Assembly: GCA_020072585.1 (NCBI GenBank)
Contig: JAIQGL010000001.1
Location: forward strand, 310,001-374,000
Direction: 5' to 3'
DNA length: 64,000 nt
DNA from: Terriglobia bacterium
GTDB lineage: Bacteria; Acidobacteriota; Terriglobia; Terriglobales; Acidobacteriaceae
Position 1 is the stretch's first letter; each line of letters begins with the position of its first letter. The translations under genes and the position numbers were made by a program. Shown here piece by piece: positions 29,606-38,582 of the stretch. The notes under the pieces were generated by a model that saw only the letters and a list, made by a program, of their open reading frames with translations, was not told the DNA's origin and did not search any database.

Positions 29606-31546
29606 GTGGCCAAGCTGACCTTTGTGGTGGGAAAAGGCGGAGTAGGAAAGACGACCGTCTCCTGCGCTCTGGCGCTGCATCTGGCTGCGCAGCATCCCGG
29701 CACATCGACGCTGCTTATGTCTACCGATCCCGCGCACTCGGTGGCGGACATGCTGGAGACGGAGAGCCATCCTGTCCCGCGCCGCCTGGCCGGCATCAAA
29801 GAAAAGCTCTTGATCTGGCAAGTCGACAGCGAGCGGGAGTTCAAGAAGTTCCTGGAGAGCAATCGCGAAGGCATCCTCAACATTGTTGAAAACGGCACGT
29901 TCTTCAACCGGGAAGAGATTGCGCCGCTGCTGGATACAACGCTGCCGGGCATGTCAGAGGTCGCCGGGCTGCTGGCGCTCCGGGAAATGCTGGAGAGCGG
30001 CAAGCATGATCACATCGTGGTGGATACAGCTCCATTTGGCCACACACTTCGCCTGTTCGAACTGCCCGGGCACTTTCAACGTTTTTTGAACTTTCTTGAG
30101 GTTGCATCCAGCCGTGACGCGTTGCTGGCCCAGCGCTTCGGCGGGCGTGCCGCGGGCCCAGCTCACGGCTTTCTTGAGGATTGGCAGGCCACGGTGCGAC
30201 AGGTGAAAGAAGCCTTCGGCGCCGGGCAGGCGGATGTTTTGCTGGTGACTTCGCCTGAGACTTTCTCCTTGAATGAAGCGGTGCGTTGCATGCAAGCCTT
30301 GCAGGAGTCAGCGCACGATATGCACGTGAGCGGCATTGTTCTGAACCGTGTTGTGATGGACGCGGCAGGTTGTTCGCGGTGCCGTTATCGCGTGCGTATG
30401 GGAAGAGAAGCTGTCCAGTTTCTGAAGCGCAATTTTCCGCGCGTGCCCAGGCTGATTGGCCCAGATCCCGGAAATCCGGTGCTGGGCGCAGTTCGGCTGC
30501 GGCGATTTGGAGCCGCGGTTTTTGCCGGACGACGGACGAACCTTTCCACACATGCGCCCAAGGGGCCAAAGCATACAATGAAGTTCACCAGAAGCGAATG
30601 GCCCGTGCCTGAGACAAGGCTTTCCTTCACTCTGGGCAAAGGCGGCGTGGGCAAGACTACCATCACGGCCGCGCTGGCTTATCGTTCACGGGCATTACGC
30701 AAGGACGTTCATGCAACGGTGTGTTCCACTGATCCTGCGCCATCGCTCGACGATATTTTCCAGAAGAAGATAGACGATCATCTGGTGCATGTGTTTGGCG
30801 ATCCTGGGCTGGGCGCTATGGAAATGGATTCTGTCTTTGAGTTTCGCCGCTGGGCAGCCCGCATCAAGCAGCAGCTTTCTGCCAGCACCCACATGGAATC
30901 CGGCGGGCTGCATGTTGATCTTACCTTCGAGAAAGAAGTGTTCGCGGCGCTGATGGAAGTGGTGCCCCCCGGAGTCGACGAAGTCTTTGCCGTTTTCCGC
31001 ATTCTGGACCTGCTGGAAGCAAAGCCGGGCATGGTGTTCATTGACATGGCGCCCACGGGACATGCGTTGGAATTGCTGCGCATGCCGGAGCGCATTCTGC
31101 TGTGGTCACGGCTTTTATTGAAAAGCCTGGCGTCGCACCGTACACTAGCCCTCGCGCAGGATGTTGCGGTGGAGTTGGCTGGATTAGGACAGCGGGTGCG
31201 CAAATTACTGGAGATCATGCGTAAACCCAGGGAAAGCCGGGCCTGGGCGGTGATGCTGCCGGAACCGGTGCCTGACCGCCAGACGCAACGCCTGCTGGCG
31301 GCGATGAACGAATTGGGGATCGCCGTGGATTCCTTGTTTGTAAACCGCGTTCTGGTGGAGCCTGAGTCTGGTTGCAGGCGCTGCCGCCGGGCCAGGCGGT
31401 GGCAAATGGACACGCTGCAGACGCTGCAACAGAAGTACGGCGCGCATCGCTTGTATCTGGTGCGCGATTTTCCTGAAGAAATTGCAGGGGCGCAGAAGAT
31501 GAAGAGATTTACCGGCGAATTATGGCAAATCCAGTCAGAAGACTAG
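29606..31546 (+). CDS. Tandem Get3/ArsA-like ATPase at the head of the gas-vesicle cluster
   Basis: 646 residues forming two fused Get3/ArsA-type halves. Half 1 has the deviant Walker A GKGGVGKTT near residue 9, STDPAHSVADM (switch I), VVDTAPFGHTLRL (switch II) and a CxxC (GCSRCR) near 255. Half 2 repeats these as GKGGVGKTT near 344, STDPAPSLDD, IDMAPTGHALELL and GCRRCR near 589, followed by the Get3-like QKYG...DFPEEIAGAQ. CxxC after a VNR/VNQ strand is the zinc-binding dimer motif of eukaryotic Get3. Get3 carries hydrophobic membrane proteins; ArsA drives arsenite export, but no ars gene is near. The GTG at 29606 fits the family N-terminus. TACAAT (29594-29599) ends 6 nt before it, so the mRNA may be leaderless; a TTG at 29528 is the alternative. 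It overlaps the next gene by 25 bp. A chaperone role for Gvp proteins is inference. Confidence 0.85.
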   Translation: MAKLTFVVGKGGVGKTTVSCALALHLAAQHPGTSTLLMSTDPAHSVADMLETESHPVPRRLAGIKEKLLIWQVDSEREFKKFLESNREGILNIVENGTFFNREEIAPLLDTTLPGMSEVAGLLALREMLESGKHDHIVVDTAPFGHTLRLFELPGHFQRFLNFLEVASSRDALLAQRFGGRAAGPAHGFLEDWQATVRQVKEAFGAGQADVLLVTSPETFSLNEAVRCMQALQESAHDMHVSGIVLNRVVMDAAGCSRCRYRVRMGREAVQFLKRNFPRVPRLIGPDPGNPVLGAVRLRRFGAAVFAGRRTNLSTHAPKGPKHTMKFTRSEWPVPETRLSFTLGKGGVGKTTITAALAYRSRALRKDVHATVCSTDPAPSLDDIFQKKIDDHLVHVFGDPGLGAMEMDSVFEFRRWAARIKQQLSASTHMESGGLHVDLTFEKEVFAALMEVVPPGVDEVFAVFRILDLLEAKPGMVFIDMAPTGHALELLRMPERILLWSRLLLKSLASHRTLALAQDVAVELAGLGQRVRKLLEIMRKPRESRAWAVMLPEPVPDRQTQRLLAAMNELGIAVDSLFVNRVLVEPESGCRRCRRARRWQMDTLQTLQQKYGAHRLYLVRDFPEEIAGAQKMKRFTGELWQIQSED

Positions 31547-32319
31547 CAGGGGCGGGCGCGCTCTATCTCTATGGGATCTCGCGCGGTCCTGGTGTCAGTG
31601 GTCCGAAGCCGCTTCCTCCAAAATTTTCCCCAACTCTGGCAAAGATCAGCAGCGCGGGGATTGATGGCGTGCACACTGTGCAGGCGCTGCCGTGCGGAGA
31701 GTTTATCTGCTGGGTGTGTGAGGTGGACCAGGCGGGTTTTGCGCAGGCCATGGAGCATAACATGGAAAACCTGGAATGGCTGGCGCTGCATGGCGTGCGG
31801 CACCAGCAGGTGGTGGGTGAAGTGGCGGCACAAACGGCGATCGTCCCCGCCAGGTTTGGCACAATTTTTTCCGGTGAGCCCGCGCTTGTGAAGGACGTAC
31901 TGGGCCGGAAGGCATCGCTCAACAAGGTCTTTGCCCGCGTTACCGGTGGCGATGAGTGGGGCGTGAAAGTATTTGCGGAACATGCAGAGCCCGTGGCAGC
32001 GCCCATTGAAGCTCGGTCCGGTAAGGAGTATCTGCAACAAAAAGCCGCCCGGATGAAAAAGCGCCCGGAGCGCAATGATCAGGAGCTGCGCGAACTGGCC
32101 ACGGCGCTGGAAAAGATCGCAACGGATTCCGCTCCCAGCGGCAAGGTGAGCGGAGCGCAACCGAGCCTGCTCTGGCAGGCCACCTTCCTGGTACCGCGCA
32201 CGAAACGCAAGCAGTGGGACCAGACGCTCAGGAATTTTGTGGAGAAGTGGGAAGGGAAGCGGCGCATCGAAGTCAATGGACCGTGGCCGCCATACTCGTT
32301 TGTCTCTGATGCCGACTGA
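31522..32319 (+). CDS. gvpL: Gas vesicle protein, GvpL/GvpF family (copy 1)
   Basis: A 265-residue GvpL/F protein. It has an N-terminal ferredoxin-like domain (LYLYGISRG at the start), a central region with IVPARFGTIFSG (the PxxFGxxF family motif), a helical stretch with a Lys-rich coiled coil (KEYLQQKAARMKKRPERNDQ, split here at the family KxYL motif) and the terminal NGPWPPYSFV motif shared by the family. GvpF and GvpL are accessory proteins that bind GvpA and are needed in vesicle assembly, at the cytosolic face of the growing shell. The ATG at 31522 lies inside the end of the ATPase gene, and the gene's end overlaps gvpS; both point to a tight operon. It is the most diverged of the three copies at its N-terminus. 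Confidence 0.88.
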   Translation: MANPVRRLAGAGALYLYGISRGPGVSGPKPLPPKFSPTLAKISSAGIDGVHTVQALPCGEFICWVCEVDQAGFAQAMEHNMENLEWLALHGVRHQQVVGEVAAQTAIVPARFGTIFSGEPALVKDVLGRKASLNKVFARVTGGDEWGVKVFAEHAEPVAAPIEARSGKEYLQQKAARMKKRPERNDQELRELATALEKIATDSAPSGKVSGAQPSLLWQATFLVPRTKRKQWDQTLRNFVEKWEGKRRIEVNGPWPPYSFVSDAD

Positions 32320-32536
32320 TTTTGAATCCGTTGAACTGCTGGGAGGCGGAGAAGAAGATATTTCTCTGCTGGAAATCCTGGACCACGTCTTGAACTCCGG
32401 GGTAGTGATCCATGGATCGCTGGTGATATCACTTGCGGGAGTGGACCTGGTGTATCTGGGGCTCAACGTGGTGCTCACTTCAGTGGAAACGGCCCTCAGG
32501 AATCTACAGGCAGAGGAGAAGCGGAGGCTGAAGTGA
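32309..32536 (+). CDS. gvpS: Gas vesicle protein GvpS (GvpA-related minor protein)
   Basis: A 75-residue member of the GvpA superfamily. The core SLLEILDHVLNSGVVIHG is followed by SLAGVDLVYLGL and then LTSVETAL. The AGVDLVYL signature separates GvpS/GvpM-type minor proteins from GvpA itself, which has VGIxLxTVEARVV at this point. Such proteins are thought to help initiate the vesicle. The ATG at 32309 overlaps the end of the previous gene by 11 bp, and the stop overlaps the next GTG as GTGA. A longer in-frame reading from 32237 is discarded because it would lie wholly within gvpL. Confidence 0.88.
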   Translation: MPTDFESVELLGGGEEDISLLEILDHVLNSGVVIHGSLVISLAGVDLVYLGLNVVLTSVETALRNLQAEEKRRLK

Positions 32537-33207
32537 GCCGCGTTCTCGCCTATTGCGCCTTCCAGTACGGACCGCAGATTTCCGTGCCCTCAATGGGCGT
32601 GAAATCAGCTCCAGTGCATGTAGCTGCCTGCGCCGCTCTCAGGCTGCTTTGGTCGGAAGTGGAGTGGCCCTTCAATCCGGCGGACATGCAGAAAAATGCG
32701 GTGGAGTTTCATGGCGTTATTCATCACGTCTTCAACCAGACGGCGGTCATACCATTCCGGCTGCTCTCAGTCTTTGAGGATGAAACGGCCCTGAACGCTT
32801 TTGCCGCTGAACATCAAGAGCGTTTCCTTGGCGATCTGGAACGGTTAAAACACTTTGTACAGATGGAGTTCGTTGTTTATCCGGCGCCGGGGCGCAAACC
32901 AGAGGATAAAAGCTCCGGTACAGCATACCTGGAGCAGAAAGCCGGGCTGTTGCGCACAATCGAACAGCAGGTGCAAGATGTGCGTGCAATATTGGGAGAG
33001 ATGAGTCACCAAGTCGTGGTGCGGGAAGCCAGGAGCGGGCACCGGGTTTTTGTACTGGTGGAACGCGGCAGAGAAGAGGCGTTCCGTGCTGCGGTGAAGG
33101 GAATTGCGGTGCCGGAGGCGCTCTCGCGGCGGACAAGCGGCCCATGGCCGGCGGCGGAATTTCTCAGCGAGTCGCTCAAGACCCCGCAGATTGCAGGCGC
33201 GAGATGA
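32533..33207 (+). CDS. gvpL: Gas vesicle protein, GvpL/GvpF family (copy 2)
   Basis: A 224-residue GvpL/F protein. VIPFRLLSVFEDE is its version of the family PxxFGTxF motif, followed by the KPEDKSSGTAYLEQKAGLL segment (the family YLxxK helix). A C-terminal half follows with VFVLVERGREEAFRAAV and SGPWPAAEFLSE, a variant of the GPWPPYxF ending in which the PPY is lost. It is shorter than the other two copies. It starts with GTG at 32533 overlapping the gvpS stop, and its TGA overlaps the gvpK ATG. Several non-identical GvpF/L paralogues per cluster are normal, and are believed to occupy different positions in the assembly complex. Confidence 0.85.
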   Translation: MSRVLAYCAFQYGPQISVPSMGVKSAPVHVAACAALRLLWSEVEWPFNPADMQKNAVEFHGVIHHVFNQTAVIPFRLLSVFEDETALNAFAAEHQERFLGDLERLKHFVQMEFVVYPAPGRKPEDKSSGTAYLEQKAGLLRTIEQQVQDVRAILGEMSHQVVVREARSGHRVFVLVERGREEAFRAAVKGIAVPEALSRRTSGPWPAAEFLSESLKTPQIAGAR

Positions 33208-33563
33208 CCGAGCTGCGCAAGATCACTCCGGAAGAGATTGCGGCGGCGGTCTCTGAGATGAACCGCGAGCTGAAAGCCGTGGGCGAGGGCGCCCTTGACC
33301 GGATTGATTGCTCGCCGGAGAACATTGAGCAAGGGCTGGCGCGGCTGGTGCTTAGCCTGGTGGAGCTGTTACGGCGGTTGTTAGAGCGCCAGGCTATCCG
33401 GCGCATGGAAGGTGGTTCCCTGGGTGAAGCCAAAGTGGAAGAGATGGGGCAGGCTCTGATGCGACTGGAGGTCAAAGTCAACGAGATTGCTGCGGCTTTT
33501 GGGTTGAAACCGGAAGAGCTGAACCTGGAACTGGGGCCGCTGGGGAACTTGCTGGATAAGTAG
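33204..33563 (+). CDS. gvpK: Gas vesicle protein GvpK
   Basis: A 119-residue helical protein matching GvpK: RIDCSPENIEQGLARLVLSLVELLRRLLERQAIRRM, then LGEAKVEEMGQALMRLE and LKPEELNLELGPLGNLL, the characteristic end of the family. GvpK is a conserved accessory protein of unknown precise role in shell assembly. The ATG at 33204 overlaps the preceding stop as ATGA. It closes the first overlapping block of the cluster; 250 bp with a candidate promoter follow before gvpJ. Confidence 0.92.
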   Translation: MTELRKITPEEIAAAVSEMNRELKAVGEGALDRIDCSPENIEQGLARLVLSLVELLRRLLERQAIRRMEGGSLGEAKVEEMGQALMRLEVKVNEIAAAFGLKPEELNLELGPLGNLLDK

Positions 33564-33714
33564 GCATCTTTTGCTTGCTGATGCTGCTGTCTCGCGACAA
33601 GATATTGGCTTGGCAGCCAACCTCTTTGCAGGGCCTGTGCATCAGAAAAACCAATCGTCAGCATCTCCCCCTTTCCGGAAATTTTTATGAGCTGACAAAT
33701 TACGGCTGCAAAGG

Positions 33715-33743
33715 TTGACAGTTTGTGGTGGGCTGGATAGGAT
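33715..33743 (+). promoter_or_regulatory. Candidate sigma-70-type promoter for gvpJ-gvpA
   Basis: TTGACA (33715-33720), a perfect -35, is followed after 17 bp by TAGGAT (33738-33743), a 4/6 match to the -10 box. Transcription would begin near 33750, about 60 nt before the gvpJ ATG. It lies in the only sizeable gap (33564-33812) of the upstream half of the cluster, just before the genes for the major shell proteins. Confidence 0.6.
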
Positions 33744-33812
33744 GCGGTGACGTGGGGTTGCGCGGATTCACTTCTGTCCCCAGGCGATCTCTTCTGTATT
33801 TTCCTGATTATT

Positions 33813-34133
33813 ATGCAAAGAGTTCCTACGGTTTCCGGAACAGCCAATCTGCTGGACATTCTCGATAGAGTTCTCGACAAAGGGCTCGTGATCGCGGGTG
33901 ACATCCGCGTCTCCCTGGCCAATGTGGAGTTGCTGACGATTCGCATTCGTTTGCTTATCTGCTCTGTTGATAAAGCTGAATCCATCGGTCTCAACTGGTG
34001 GAAATATGATCCCAATCTTACCGCTCCGGCGCCCCAGCCTGTAGTGCGCCGGACTCAATTACCCGGTGCGCCACCGGGCTCGCAGGCGCCACGACGAAGC
34101 AAGCCTGCGGCCCGCGTAAAACGGGCGAAGTGA
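33813..34133 (+). CDS. gvpJ: Gas vesicle protein GvpJ (GvpA-related)
   Basis: A 106-residue GvpA-superfamily protein. [51 protein letters not shown] matches, in pieces, the GvpJ pattern (ELLTIxIRLL and DKA-x-x-x-G-x-x-WW). A basic Pro/Arg-rich tail of about 40 residues follows. GvpJ is a minor shell or nucleation protein. The ATG at 33813 lacks a clear Shine-Dalgarno; an in-frame GTG at 33747 would add an unlikely hydrophobic leader. It lies just upstream of gvpA and probably shares its transcript. Confidence 0.88.
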   Translation: MQRVPTVSGTANLLDILDRVLDKGLVIAGDIRVSLANVELLTIRIRLLICSVDKAESIGLNWWKYDPNLTAPAPQPVVRRTQLPGAPPGSQAPRRSKPAARVKRAK

Positions 34134-34143
34134 TCGATTCTAA

Positions 34144-34158
34144 GAAGGAGGCCTTCGA
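34144..34158 (+). promoter_or_regulatory. Strong gvpA Shine-Dalgarno inside a small hairpin
   Basis: AAGGAGG (34145-34151) is a near-ideal ribosome binding site 7 nt before the gvpA ATG. GAAGG (34144-34148) can pair with CCTTC (34152-34156) around an AGG loop, so part of the site may be masked. The strength suits an abundant structural protein. Confidence 0.65.
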
Positions 34159-34458
34159 ATGGCCGTTGAGAGAGTTTCTGGCGGATCAAGCTTAATCGAT
34201 GTCCTGGATCGAGTACTCGACAAAGGAATCGTCATCGATGCCTGGGTCCGCATTTCATTGGTCGGTATTGATTTGATCACCGTCGAGGCCCGCGTTGTCG
34301 TGGCCTCTATCGATACCTATCTCAAATATGCCGACGCCGTCGGTCTTACTGGTCTGGTTTCCCGTCCCACCCTCAGTGAAGGCGATAGTGAAGGTGGAGA
34401 AGGCAAACCTATTGAGGTCAGGCCGCGAACGTCACGTACACCCCGCCGGCGGCGGTAA
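34159..34458 (+). CDS. gvpA: Major gas vesicle structural protein GvpA
   Basis: 99 residues. The core (about 8-65) is the classic GvpA fold: [55 protein letters not shown]. This is helix 1, a beta hairpin that polymerises into the shell ribs, and helix 2. The tail of about 35 residues is longer than usual, acidic first ([10 protein letters not shown]) and then strongly basic ([12 protein letters not shown]). GvpA self-assembles into the gas-permeable, water-excluding shell. The ribosome binding site is the strongest in the cluster. The histidine kinase begins 21 bp downstream. A single gvpA copy is present in the window. Confidence 0.95.
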
Positions 34459-34479
34459 GGCTAGGTCTTGGGGTCACGC

Positions 34480-36597
34480 ATGGCTACGGCCGAAATTCGG
34501 TTTCAGCCCGGTCGCGCAAGCGGGCGGCGTGCGACGCAGCCTCGCCGTCCGGCGGTGCTTCGTTTACTTCAGGCAGAGCGTTCGGAAGAAATATTCCCAC
34601 TGTTGCTGGAGGAGATCATCGCTCTGGGCAACCCGCGTGCCCTTATTGTTGACGTGAATCTTGACAGCGGCGAGGTCATGCCCGCCGCTGCGCTCAAATG
34701 GCCGCGTCCGCAGATGGAGAAATTTACCAGTGCGCTCTGGATGCAGGAGCATCCTCTGATCGCAGCGTTACATTCTGCACGCCCTGAAGTACTCCGGAAG
34801 AGCAACCTGCACAACAAGCCTTTGTACGTTCATCCTATTCTTTACTCCAATCGCAACCTGTGCTGGGAGGCCGACCGCATTCGTACCGCCAGTTGCCTGG
34901 CCGTACAAAACTCCCGCCGCGAGAAGCGCGTCCGGCTGGAAGACCAGGTTTGTGCCACCTGTGAGATGCGGGCGTACGCCGCGGCCGTGGTGGTGGAGCT
35001 GCCCAAGAACTATTCGGAGCAGAGTGTAGCTGAACTGGGCGAGCTGATTGATCTCGCCAACCGCTATCTCTCGCGGCTTTTCAAGGTAGAACATTATTAC
35101 AACCGCATGCGTGATATGGAAATCACCATCGCGCAGATGGGAACGGTCATGCAGAGCATGGCCGATCCGGTTATTCTTACTGACACGCAGCATCGTGTGA
35201 TCATGCAGAACAAGGCGGCCGAGCGTTTCTTCCGCGTCCCGGACGAAATGACGGAAGGCCTGGTGCGCGCCGTGGAATTCAACAATCTGCTTTTTTCCGC
35301 TGCGCTCTCTTCCATGCTGGTTTCCGGCAGTGACTCGCATCGCGACCTCACTCTGGTCGATGCCATCGAAGGCGAGGAGATGCTCTTTGAAGCCGTTTCC
35401 GCCCCTACCTATGGTCCTGACGGGATTCAGCTCGGCACCGTCACCGTGATGCGTGACGTGACTGATCTCCGCCGCGCCGACCAGGAGCTGCGCCTCAACT
35501 ACGAACGGCTGAGTGACGCCGAAGAGGTCGTCCGCCAGGACCGTGACCGCCTGAATCTCATCATCGAAAACGTCGGCGACCCCATTGTGGTGTGCGACGG
35601 CAAAGCCAAGATCGTGCTCGTGGACCCTCTGGCCCAGGAATTGTTCGGCACCGAGACTGATGTGGTGCGCGACACCGTCCAATTCCAGAACCAGACCAAG
35701 CTCACGGCCTACATTGATGCGTTCACCGCTTCCTTTGCCGACCGTGAGACCGCCCCGTTGCGCCTGTACAATCCCGCGCTCCGGCAGGAAATTGAGTATG
35801 ACGCCCGCTCCGGCAAGATCTTTGGCGAGCGCGGCCAAGTGGCTTACACCGTGACCGTGCTGCGCGATCTAACGGCCTTGCGCAAGATGGAGCAGCTCAA
35901 GGTGGAGCGGCGCATGCTCGAAATTGAAAAATTCGCCGCCACCGGCAGGCTGGCCGCAACCATTGCCCATGAGGTCAACAACCCCATGGAGGCCATCAAG
36001 AACGCAATTTACCTGCTGGCCAGCGCGATCCCGGAAAATGCCGTTCCCGTGTACAGCATCTTAAAGTCGGAAACCGAGCGGGTGGCGCGCATTGTCCGCC
36101 AGATGCTGGGGCTCTATCGCAACACGGAGCAGGTCAAGCCAGTCAACGTGAACACTATTATCGAAGACACGCTTTTGCTGCTGAACCGGCAGCTCCAGCG
36201 CGCCAACGTGGAAGTGCAGACCGAATTGGAAGCGCTGCCCGATGCTCTGATTGCCGCTGACCAGATCCGCCAGGTGTTCTCCAACCTGGTCATCAATGCC
36301 CGGGACGCCATGCCGAATGGCGGCAAGCTGCGCATACGCAGCCGCCACATTCCCGGTTATGACGATCTGCACGGCTGGGTGCGCATCTTGATTGCCGATA
36401 CAGGGTCCGGAATTCCATTGGAGATGATTCGCTCCATCTTTGAACCGTTTGTTACCACCAAGGGCGAAAGGGGTACCGGGCTGGGGCTTTGGATCGTTAA
36501 AGGAATTATCCAGAACCATGCCGGCAAGCTCTCAGTGAAGAGCAGGATAGGGCGCGGCACCACTTTTAAGATCGATTTGCCAGTCGTAAAATTGTGA
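34480..36597 (+). CDS. Sensor histidine kinase with Cys-bearing N-terminal domain and PAS domains, inside the gvp cluster
   Basis: 705 residues with no transmembrane segment, so cytosolic. The N-terminal domain (about 1-215) contains four cysteines, Cys128, Cys139, Cys158 and Cys161 (C-x10-C-x18-C-x2-C), able in principle to bind a metal or Fe-S cluster or to respond to redox state. Two PAS domains follow (about 220-345 and 360-470). The HisKA domain has the phospho-acceptor His497 in IAHEVNNPMEAIKN. The HATPase has NLVINARDAMP (N box), ADTGSGIP (G1) and GERGTGLGLWIVKG (G2). It is a complete kinase. The receiver gene downstream overlaps it (GTGA), so they form a pair. The ATG at 34480 is preferred, with GGGG upstream. 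A regulatory role over vesicle genes is inferred from position only. Confidence 0.92.
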   Translation: MATAEIRFQPGRASGRRATQPRRPAVLRLLQAERSEEIFPLLLEEIIALGNPRALIVDVNLDSGEVMPAAALKWPRPQMEKFTSALWMQEHPLIAALHSARPEVLRKSNLHNKPLYVHPILYSNRNLCWEADRIRTASCLAVQNSRREKRVRLEDQVCATCEMRAYAAAVVVELPKNYSEQSVAELGELIDLANRYLSRLFKVEHYYNRMRDMEITIAQMGTVMQSMADPVILTDTQHRVIMQNKAAERFFRVPDEMTEGLVRAVEFNNLLFSAALSSMLVSGSDSHRDLTLVDAIEGEEMLFEAVSAPTYGPDGIQLGTVTVMRDVTDLRRADQELRLNYERLSDAEEVVRQDRDRLNLIIENVGDPIVVCDGKAKIVLVDPLAQELFGTETDVVRDTVQFQNQTKLTAYIDAFTASFADRETAPLRLYNPALRQEIEYDARSGKIFGERGQVAYTVTVLRDLTALRKMEQLKVERRMLEIEKFAATGRLAATIAHEVNNPMEAIKNAIYLLASAIPENAVPVYSILKSETERVARIVRQMLGLYRNTEQVKPVNVNTIIEDTLLLLNRQLQRANVEVQTELEALPDALIAADQIRQVFSNLVINARDAMPNGGKLRIRSRHIPGYDDLHGWVRILIADTGSGIPLEMIRSIFEPFVTTKGERGTGLGLWIVKGIIQNHAGKLSVKSRIGRGTTFKIDLPVVKL

Positions 36598-37025
36598 GTT
36601 CAGAGGGAAAATATCGAGTGTTGGTGGTGGACGATGAAGCTGCTGTCCTGCTTACGTACCGGCTTATTCTGGAACGGCAAGGCTATGAAGTGGTGGCCTG
36701 CGGCACGTCCGTACAGGCCATTGAAGCCATCGGCAAGCAGCAGTTTGATGTGGTCTTGTGCGACTATTCGCTGGAAGAGCAGCACACGGGTTTTGAGGTA
36801 ATCTCAGCGGCCAGGCTGCGCGATACGGATGTGCCTGCGGCACTGCTTACTGGGTATGCCACCAAGGAAACGGCAGATGAAGCAGCCAGCCAGGGCATCG
36901 GCGTGATGTTCAAGCCGATTGAGATTGAAGAATTTCTGGCGACAACTTCCAACATGCTAAGGAAAAACCATGAGCCCAAGCAAGAAGGCGAAAAAGACGA
37001 CCGCGGTCCGCAAAACGTCCGCTAA
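36594..37025 (+). CDS. Stand-alone response regulator receiver in the gvp cluster
   Basis: A 143-residue receiver domain. VLVVDDEAAV carries the acidic pair, Asp57 in VVLCDYSL is the phospho-acceptor, LLTGYA holds the conserved Thr and MFKPIE the conserved Lys. After the receiver only a 25-residue charged tail remains, so there is no DNA-binding output; it must act through a partner. The GTG start at 36594 overlaps the kinase stop. Its last 56 bp overlap the start of gvpF in another frame, an unusually long overlap for this cluster. It is the cognate regulator of the kinase by position. Confidence 0.9.
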   Translation: MSSEGKYRVLVVDDEAAVLLTYRLILERQGYEVVACGTSVQAIEAIGKQQFDVVLCDYSLEEQHTGFEVISAARLRDTDVPAALLTGYATKETADEAASQGIGVMFKPIEIEEFLATTSNMLRKNHEPKQEGEKDDRGPQNVR

Positions 37026-37869
37026 GGCTGAACCGGCCACCGCGGTGCTTGATCTGGTAACTCCACCGGGGCCCGCAAAGGTTGAGTCTCCCAGAAGCGG
37101 ACAGCAACAGGAAGGCCGCTATGTTTATGGCGTGATTGAATCGCGCACGCCTGTCGGCTTCGGCCGCAGCAGCATTGGCGGCGTGAATGAAGACGTCTAC
37201 ACCGTGCATTACGGTGATATTGCCGCCGTGGTCAGCCGCACGCCTGTTTTTATCTTTGATCCTACACGTGACAACGCTCTGGCCCATGAACACGTGATTG
37301 AATCAGTGATGAAGAATTACACCATCATTCCCATGAGCTTTGGCACGGTCTTTCGCACGGACGACGATATCCGCGAAGTGCTCAAGAGCATTTACTCATC
37401 GCTTAAGGACGTGCTCAAGCAGATGACCGGCAAGCTTGAGTTCGGACTGAAAGTTACCTGGGACCGCGACCGCATCATTGAAGAGCTGCAGCGCGAGCAC
37501 GATGAAATCCACCGCTTCCATCTGGAACTTACGCGCAAACACCTGCAATCCACGTACTTTGCCCGCATGCAGCTTGGCCGCATGATCGATAAAGCGCTGG
37601 CTGAACTTGCCGCCAATTACGTCCGTGAAATTTATGACGGTCTGCGCGCGGTCTGTGTCGCCTCACGTGACAATAAGCCCATTGGCGATAAAATGATCAT
37701 GAATGCCGCCTTCCTGATCCAGAAGGCGCGCGAAGCTGAGTTTGATGCCGCCGTGAATCGCGTTGCCCAGAAATACGGTGACCGTCTCAACTTTAAATAT
37801 ACCGGCCCGTGGCCGCCTTACAATTTCGTGAACATTCGCCTCAAGCTGGAGCGCGGCGGACAAGGGTAA
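36970..37869 (+). CDS. gvpF: Gas vesicle protein GvpF (GvpL/F family, copy 3)
   Basis: 299 residues, the most canonical GvpF/L here. A Lys/Ala-rich leader of about 45 residues is followed by RYVYGVIESR, IAAVVSRTPVFIF, LAHEHVIESVMKNYTIIPMS and FGTVFRTDDDIREVL. A long helical region and the terminal YTGPWPPYNFVNIRLKL follow. It forms part of the soluble accessory complex with GvpA. The ATG at 36970, with AAGGAAA 6 nt upstream, lies 56 bp inside the receiver gene. The leader residues are encoded largely in the overlap, which may explain their odd composition. A gap of 184 bp follows before gvpG. Confidence 0.92.
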   Translation: MSPSKKAKKTTAVRKTSAKAEPATAVLDLVTPPGPAKVESPRSGQQQEGRYVYGVIESRTPVGFGRSSIGGVNEDVYTVHYGDIAAVVSRTPVFIFDPTRDNALAHEHVIESVMKNYTIIPMSFGTVFRTDDDIREVLKSIYSSLKDVLKQMTGKLEFGLKVTWDRDRIIEELQREHDEIHRFHLELTRKHLQSTYFARMQLGRMIDKALAELAANYVREIYDGLRAVCVASRDNKPIGDKMIMNAAFLIQKAREAEFDAAVNRVAQKYGDRLNFKYTGPWPPYNFVNIRLKLERGGQG

Positions 37870-38053
37870 AACTGAAAGGGATAGAAAAAATTAAAGGTGA
37901 AAGAGCGGTCCCTTCAGGGCCGCGTAAGAGATTCACAGACGCGTTGCAAAATCAGTCCACTCTGAGGCGAGCGAATGCGAAGCCGTAAGGGTGGGTAGGC
38001 AATCAAGTCAGCTCGAGTCCCGTGGGGGCGATACATCTCCGGAGGAAACATAA

Positions 38054-38389
38054 ATGCTCCTAATTGACGATCTCCTCTTTGCGCCCTTCTCCGGCTGGAA
38101 CTTCATCATGCGCACTCTGCTCAAGGTTGCTGAAGAGCAGTGGACAGACGATGCACCTCTCAAAGAACAGCTGCTGGCTCTCCAGGTGCAGATTGAAGAC
38201 GGTTCCATTACTGAAGAGCAATATCTTGAGGCTGAAGCCGCTATCCTGCGAGAGATCCGCGAAGTGCAGCGGCGCAAAATCGAACTGGCTGGCGGCGATC
38301 CTGACGCTTTTGAAAGCGGCATCTCAGGCTCCGCTCTCCAGGAAGGCTCCGGCGCGTCCATCACCTGGGACCCCAGCAATGAGGAATAG
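38054..38389 (+). CDS. gvpG: Gas vesicle protein GvpG
   Basis: 111 residues matching GvpG: LLIDDLLFAPFSGWNFI at the N-terminus, then LKEQLLALQVQIEDGSITEEQYLEAEAAILREIREVQRR, the charged helical hairpin of the family (quoted here as the ITEEQYLEAEAAIL signature), and an acidic tail. GvpG is a small accessory protein needed for vesicle formation and often encoded next to gvpF, as here. GGAGG at 38040-38044 precedes the ATG. It is the last gene of the cluster; an intrinsic terminator lies 160 bp downstream. Confidence 0.9.
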   Translation: MLLIDDLLFAPFSGWNFIMRTLLKVAEEQWTDDAPLKEQLLALQVQIEDGSITEEQYLEAEAAILREIREVQRRKIELAGGDPDAFESGISGSALQEGSGASITWDPSNEE

Positions 38390-38551
38390 ACCTGCCATCG
38401 CAGCTATGATCCTTGGGTAAAACAGCTTCTTTATCTCGCTCGCGCCGAAGCCGATCAGAAAAATGGCCATCAGCGGGGAAAACATCCAGTTTGAGCAACT
38501 GCTCCTTTGCGCCTGATGCCAGGCCGTATGCAGAAAAATTTCAGCCAAAGA

Positions 38552-38582
38552 AAAAGCCCGGCGCGTACAGCACCGGGCTTTT
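38552..38582. terminator. Bidirectional intrinsic terminator between gvp cluster and TonB receptor
   Basis: A perfect 10-bp stem, AAAAGCCCGG (38552-38561) and CCGGGCTTTT (38573-38582), with T-rich flanks on both sides, serves both the gvp cluster (+) and the convergent receptor gene (-). Confidence 0.9.

Follow-up and report, generated by a model that had tools for sequence, protein, structure and literature searches.

A gas-vesicle gene cluster without GvpN, with a tandem Get3/ArsA-family ATPase and its own kinase and receiver, in a soil-type acidobacterium

Gas-vesicle (gvp) genes occupy positions 29606-38582, on the + strand, of the window that we analysed, a stretch of 64,000 nucleotides from a Terriglobia bacterium (assembly GCA_020072585.1, contig JAIQGL010000001.1, positions 310,001 to 374,000). 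The host is a soil-type acidobacterium and the gvp cluster is genuine. The cluster has no GvpN, and among its genes lie a tandem ATPase of the Get3/ArsA family, a histidine kinase and a receiver; a cluster of this type is little described. Our reading, tentative and somewhat short of probable, is that it is the biogenesis locus of a distinct gas-vesicle lineage dispensing with GvpN, a variant in which a dedicated two-component pair that does not bind DNA would govern assembly. This reading is supported by the mutual exclusion of the kinase and GvpN in single stretches of DNA, by the position of the kinase, conserved across phyla, and by a motif in its first PAS domain (PAS-1), which tracks the shell genes. 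It is also supported by the counts, with the kinase in 40 of the 50 gvpA-bearing genomes of the order against 9 of 50 for GvpN, and with at least two other cluster genes in 62 of 63 kinase loci. Further support comes from relatives that keep one gvpF/L gene, the kinase and the receiver without shell genes, from a GvpF/L tree in which the kinase clusters lie on one side of a 100% branch, and from the CxxC motifs of both ATPase halves, conserved in near and far clusters.

The genes follow one another as tandem ATPase, FL1, A1, FL2, gvpK, gvpJ, gvpA, HK, REC, FL3, gvpG and terminator (FL, GvpF/L protein; A1, gvpA-type paralogue; HK, histidine kinase; REC, receiver):

29606..31546, +, tandem (two-half) Get3/ArsA-family ATPase, 646 aa, CxxC in each half (PF02374, ArsA_ATPase, 308 bits)
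31522..32319, +, FL1, gvpF/L paralogue 1 (PF06386, 134.5 bits)
32312..32536, +, A1, gvpA-type paralogue, gvpS/M-like, proposed start ATG 32312 (PF00741, 54.8 bits)
32533..33207, +, FL2, gvpF/L paralogue 2, the one retained with HK and REC in shell-less relatives (PF06386, 83.5 bits)
33204..33563, +, gvpK, proposed start ATG 33204, open frame from 33144 (PF05121, 111.5 bits)
33715..33743, +, sigma-70-like promoter TTGACA-17-TAGGAT in the gvpK-gvpJ gap (10/12 consensus match)
33813..34133, +, gvpJ, ATG 33813 chosen by conservation of the start region (PF00741, 63 bits)
34159..34458, +, gvpA, main shell protein (PF00741, 62 bits; NF006874, 114.5 bits)
34480..36597, +, soluble HK with GAF, PAS, PAS, HisKA and HATPase, proposed start 34480, open frame from 34468 (HisKA 30 bits, HATPase 89 bits)
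34861..34962, +, four-cysteine GAF segment C-x10-C-x18-CxxC, cysteines conserved in HK rows of the order
35281..35307, +, PAS-1 motif NNLLFSAAL (37/39 HK rows of the order)
36594..37025, +, REC, single-domain response-regulator receiver without output domain (PF00072, 64.9 bits)
36970..37869, +, FL3, gvpF/L paralogue 3, gvpF-like (PF06386, 252.6 bits)
38054..38389, +, gvpG (PF05120, 50.7 bits, cut-off 30.6)
38552..38582, +, terminator hairpin 3' of gvpG (-21.5 kcal/mol, z -4.0)

The genes that an earlier note on this DNA had named, ATPase, kinase and receiver included, were all recovered by profile scans of the open reading frames (ORFs) between 29606 and 38582, each above its curated cut-off. 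The boundaries proposed there fit as well: the GTG at 29606 agrees with the start position of the orthologues, and none of 200 shuffled sequences gave a hairpin as good as that at 38552-38582.

Kinase and GvpN in gas-vesicle clusters

The survey of the order covered 397 genomes, 50 of which have a GvpA domain, the window's own among them; regions were fetched for 48 of the other 49, and the last (G260) was added afterwards. GvpN was scored with TIGR02640 in the order, in the window's genome and in the 28 genomes of distant kinase loci. It was not found in the window's own genome, where the best score was 34.8 bits against a cut-off of 266.8, an absence that the earlier note had missed, and it passed the cut-off in 9 of the other 49 gvpA-bearing genomes. 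The clusters of the order are of two kinds: kind I has the window's gene order, and kind II has GvpN and an ATPase without this kinase. By a model of PAS-1, the 48 fetched genomes comprise 38 with the kinase and without GvpN, 9 with GvpN and without the kinase, none with both and one with neither, and with the window's genome and G260 the kinase is present in 40 of 50. These kinase counts rest on the PAS-1 model, whose scores are bimodal (at least 109 or at most 30), or on an alignment search with the kinase. The genome with neither (G189) has a remnant cluster; a first home-made kinase model had scored it as positive, falsely, its training set having admitted any kinase above 60 bits. The kinase and GvpN were not found together in any fetched stretch, and GvpN was found in neither of two genomes (G317 and G370) that carry kind II-like fragments besides a kind I cluster. 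In one kind II cluster (L059:3-7613), ORFs that by eye are Hsp20-like, CDC48-like AAA and zinc-finger-like adjoin the gvp genes and GvpN. What the earlier note had named as evidence against itself is half present: five relatives keep the kinase, the receiver and one gvpF/L gene without shell genes, and the GvpN-type clusters of the same order have gvp genes without this kinase.

According to passages of a review, GvpN is found in all gas-vesicle clusters and is essential for vesicle growth (PMC10903477). The cryptic cluster of Streptomyces coelicolor, however, is also described as lacking gvpN (PMC4982088, in the part consulted), and for that reason we class the window's cluster as a gas-vesicle variant in spite of the missing gene. 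By analogy with that cryptic cluster, the window's cluster might no longer make gas-filled vesicles and might serve another role, as the absence of GvpN from the genome and the eroded clusters of several relatives would allow. We consider this unlikely: GvpA is under strong constraint (dN/dS of 0.02 in one pair and 0.05 in another; here and below, most pairs have a dS close to 1 or higher) and passes the NCBI structural GvpA model (NF006874, 114.5 bits against a cut-off of 100). The classical GvpN clusters of Anabaena, Bacillus megaterium, Halobacterium and Serratia share GvpA, GvpJ/S-type paralogues, GvpF/L, GvpK and GvpG with the window, but the window lacks GvpN and has the kinase and receiver interleaved with its gvp genes.

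In a wider search, the N-terminal alignment of the kinase was scanned over genome contigs and gave the 63 loci, which had been found by two peptide patterns, one of them the PAS-1 motif. The only locus without at least two other cluster genes (L162) is a stretch of 10,975 bases that has the kinase at its left end, with FL3 and the receiver alone visible beside it. The distant kinase homologues (27-51% identity in the best segment) are spread over Acidobacteriota, group 6 among them, Rokubacteria, Myxococcota and one Planctomycetota, and some stand in records titled Deltaproteobacteria. Where the sequence is long enough, their genes run J-A-HK-(REC)-FL3-G-ATPase-FL1-A1-FL2-K, which is the window's order circularly permuted and joined at the gvpK-gvpJ gap, and the order J-A-HK-(receiver)-FL3-G is conserved across phyla, with the receiver found at the equivalent position in other phyla. 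A gvpA-type ORF ends at most 1.2 kb upstream of the kinase in 96 of 103 kinase stretches, many of which are duplicates of the same genomes (loci L100-L133 and L161 mostly duplicate the genomes of L038-L097).

GvpN exceeded its cut-off in two of the 28 genomes of distant kinase loci, each time on another contig than the kinase, one contig bearing a full GvpN-type cluster (L163) and the other GvpN and two gvpF/L genes at its end (L164). A GvpA domain is present in 13 of 282 Myxococcota genomes; in the stretches fetched from these, scored with a home-made single-sequence GvpN model, two have the kinase without GvpN (one being the centre genome, G406) and 11 have GvpN without the kinase, an ATPase being seen in three of these 11. 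A different kinase and receiver are present in L163, in L164 and in L173, whose genome has its GvpN on another contig, so that kinases have come into gvp loci more than once. In the two GvpN-type loci these are PAS-PAS kinases (L163:6170-8067 and L164:2698-4796) outside the PAS-1 motif family. A Rokubacteria cluster has a second kinase-like ORF, of 520 aa, between FL3 and gvpG (L157:12922-14484).

In an FL3 tree made by a quick method, all 51 rows from kinase clusters lie on one side of the 100% branch, the remainder of the tree being unsure because of long branches in the GvpN group; in the ATPase tree, the near-kinase, far-kinase and GvpN groups are separate. For these trees, L048, L063 and L071, which have no GvpN in the stretch, were assigned by hand to the GvpN-type group. 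In the open-access literature on gas vesicles, searched by titles and abstract openings, with most subscription papers outside the scope, we did not find a conserved histidine kinase tied to acidobacterial, rokubacterial or myxobacterial gvp loci.

Kinase, receiver and transcription units

The kinase is a soluble protein (maximal 19-residue hydropathy 1.31) composed of a GAF domain with four cysteines, whose fold was recognised from a predicted model, two PAS domains and a kinase core, with the H, N, G1 and G2 boxes intact in the 12 rows inspected. The four GAF positions are cysteine in 39, 38, 39 and 39 of the 39 rows of the order, respectively. The receiver protein (143 aa) consists of the receiver domain only, and a DNA-binding output domain is absent. 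With HisKA, HATPase and receiver domains all present, the two proteins have the make-up of a two-component pair.

From the overlaps of its genes, the cluster had been taken in the earlier note for a single unit. The overlaps do not establish this: gvpK is followed by a gap of 249 bp before the proposed start of gvpJ, FL3 and gvpG are spaced by 184 bp, and the cluster probably comprises two transcription units, ATPase-FL1-A1-FL2-K and J-A-HK-REC-FL3-G. We read it as two units because of the sigma-70-like promoter in the gvpK-gvpJ gap, both hexamers of which are identical in the window and in 3/3 aligned congeners.

These data bear on the possibility that kinase and receiver are an ordinary transcriptional switch, in which the phosphate would pass to a sigma-54 activator of the NtrC type encoded elsewhere that would turn on the gvp promoters. 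AtoS and ZraS are partners of NtrC-type regulators. The models that score best with the kinase core are those of AtoS (251 bits), PnpS and ZraS, none of which reaches its cut-off, and in three Myxococcota loci (L143, L147 and L155) gvpJ is preceded, at a distance of about 2-3 kb, by ORFs of 467-479 aa that have a receiver match. The analogy is with Serratia, in which gvpA1 is reported to be under the NtrC-like regulator GvrA (PMC4982088, in the part consulted); the likeness to gvrA, gvrB and gvrC lies in signalling genes within a gvp locus, GvrA being an NtrC-like regulator where the window has a cytosolic kinase and a receiver without output. This last feature speaks against the switch, as do the sigma-70-like promoter and the sigma-54-like sites, which are no commoner in the window than by chance (19 found against 28.6 expected). 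We therefore see such a switch as possible but on the unlikely side.

Relatives without shell genes

Of the 397 genomes, 44 were matched by the alignment search with the kinase; 40 of these have a GvpA domain and four do not (G041, G187, G158 and G042). In these four, FL2, kinase and receiver are all that remains of the cluster, the receiver being interrupted in G187 (L184) and the kinase lacking PAS domains in G042. A fifth shell-less relative (G343) has FL2, a kinase reduced to its core and the receiver, each overlapping the next. GvpK was not found in any of the five genomes, and their only GvpF/L genes are FL2 and one distant stand-alone copy. In the window's genus, the sample has three gvpA-negative genomes, and each of them retains the trio. 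As the four longer shell-less kinases do not form one clade (approximately unbiased test, p 6e-6), the shell was probably lost more than once. For the congeners L183 and L184 compared with each other, dN/dS is 0.12 for the kinase, 0.30 for FL2 and 0.18 for the receiver (76 codons), compared with 0.06-0.08 for the kinase (three pairs) and 0.15 for FL2 (one pair) in pairs with vesicle genes; FL2 rows with L079 were excluded, another ORF having been picked there (its FL2 lies on L080). By these ratios, the trio is still constrained without the shell, but somewhat relaxed. In another genome (G383), the kinase is retained without gvpJ or gvpA.

As the 63-locus search had itself used the PAS-1 motif, the motif was counted only in kinases chosen by a GvpA-domain match. 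NN[LM]LFSAAL is present in 37 of 39 of these, and the two exceptions are one residue off. In contrast, it is present in one of four shell-less kinases, the fifth having no PAS domain, whereas the four GAF cysteines are kept in all four shell-less kinases that retain the GAF domain. This loss of the motif and retention of the cysteines suggest that PAS-1 may be the sensor of the vesicle and GAF that of a chemical cue.

A trio that persists without any shell gene, with a kinase dN/dS well below 1 between two shell-less relatives, could also be a separate signalling system that sits in the cluster by chance and is dispensable for vesicles. We think this quite improbable, given that the position of the kinase behind gvpA is conserved across phyla, that loss of the shell goes with decay of the PAS-1 motif, and that the kinase and GvpN are mutually exclusive. 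A further, doubtful possibility is that GvpF/L, the four-cysteine GAF kinase and the receiver are a signalling module in their own right, in which, in bacteria with vesicles, PAS-1 would read the state of the vesicle or of shell precursors and gate assembly in GvpN's place; after shell loss the trio would persist with PAS-1 decayed. If so, GvpF/L proteins would be partners in two-component signalling, beyond their role as shell chaperones.

Two observations concern gvp-like genes outside the clusters. A stand-alone GvpF/L gene lies elsewhere in the window's genome (G000:C6:39603-40307; L189:5583-6311), and such a gene was found in 12/12 genomes searched, with or without vesicle genes; of the 12 stretches fetched around it, 7 have a homologue of the neighbouring regulator (NtrC-type by eye) beside it and 10 a gene that by eye is TraR/DksA-like. 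A fourth, weak GvpA-domain match of the window's genome (28.5 bits, in a 124-aa frame; L004, G000:C3:217456-217554) has no gvp neighbour in the 3.1 kb inspected by eye and may be due to chance or be a remnant.

The tandem ATPase and the proposed mechanism

The tandem Get3-like ATPase of the earlier note does belong to the Get3/ArsA family, as one gene with two ATPase halves. It scored 308.8 bits (cut-off 135) against TIGR00345, a joint TRC40/GET3/ArsA model that cannot separate Get3 from ArsA, and failed the arsenical-pump equivalog TIGR04291 (146 bits against 650). Its CxxC motifs align with those of archaeal Get3/TRC40, the first half with 3zq6 and the second with 3ug6; among 34 sequences, the first is invariant and the second nearly so. 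The arsenite-binding cysteines of E. coli ArsA are Cys113, Cys172 and Cys422. In local phmmer alignments, Cys113 and Cys422 (the latter against the first half) fall on non-cysteines, and Cys172 lies outside the aligned part. Among PDB sequences, Chlamydomonas ArsA1 (5zme) matches it best. The top fold matches of the predicted model (pLDDT 87) are tandem ArsA, arsenite-pump proteins (best, the closed ArsA of Leptospirillum, query TM 0.71), and Get3 matches half by half, so that the fold alone favours neither. The ATPase thus shares two P-loop halves with Get3/TRC40, tandem ArsA and ArsA1, and its CxxC in both halves is of the Get3/TRC40 type, whereas at the aligned position CxxC is missing from E. 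coli ArsA and from the first half of ArsA1; it differs from Get3/ArsA proteins in sitting in gvp loci and in scoring below the arsenical-pump cut-off. An ATPase alignment match at E 1e-40 or better was obtained in 48 of the 50 gvpA-bearing genomes of the order (not in G126 and G145), and 24 gvpA-negative genomes gave matches of at most 263 bits.

The link of this ATPase to gvp genes is not new: two-half ArsA homologues were reported in 2010 in gvp clusters of four phyla, an acidobacterium included (Castillo & Saier, PMC2963123), and the link is therefore no peculiarity of this host. Of the variant system that the earlier note had envisaged in a soil-type host, the genuine gvp cluster and the conservation of ATPase and kinase with gvp genes stand, and the novelty of the ATPase does not. 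In the passages of that paper available to us, the cluster of 'Acidobacteria bacterium Ellin345' shares with the window a two-half ArsA homologue of ~640 aa with gvpL/F, J, K and M, but has two L/F genes and one each of J, K and M, compared with three FL genes in the window; the term histidine kinase is absent from the text, and in these passages the absence of GvpN is not presented as a type.

In the mechanism that we propose, the ATPase would shield the hydrophobic GvpA-type subunits and deliver them, as Get3 does with tail anchors. The kinase would sense a chemical cue through the four-cysteine GAF domain (metal or Fe-S; redox or oxygen) and combine it with a vesicle-linked cue received through PAS-1. 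The phosphorylated receiver would then have a protein as its target and not DNA, most likely a GvpF/L such as FL2, and this contact would license or stop assembly.

Several observations weigh against this scheme. The four cysteines are absent from the 28 aligned distant kinase homologues, so a four-cysteine input is not general, and near and far kinase cores differ. The receiver is not universal, lying between kinase and FL3 in 26/36 stretches of the order (L054 included) and in 18/23 distant stretches scored, and one genome (G126) has no FL2 but keeps the kinase, the receiver, FL1 and a gvpA. The best folds of the ATPase are those of arsenite-pump ArsA, the solved tandem proteins, and as the GvpN clusters of the order carry the ATPase too, it is not simply a GvpN substitute. 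Since growth in Serratia without GvpN is described as halting at small bicones (PMC4982088, in the part consulted), the locus may yield few or abortive vesicles.

A lineage spread over several phyla, without GvpN and with a kinase instead, would make the role of GvpN directly testable, and likewise that of the long-known, unexplained ArsA/Get3 partner. The relatives without shell genes amount to an experiment of nature that bears on which part of the kinase senses the vesicle, and the cluster may offer a signal-controlled gene set for engineered gas vesicles.

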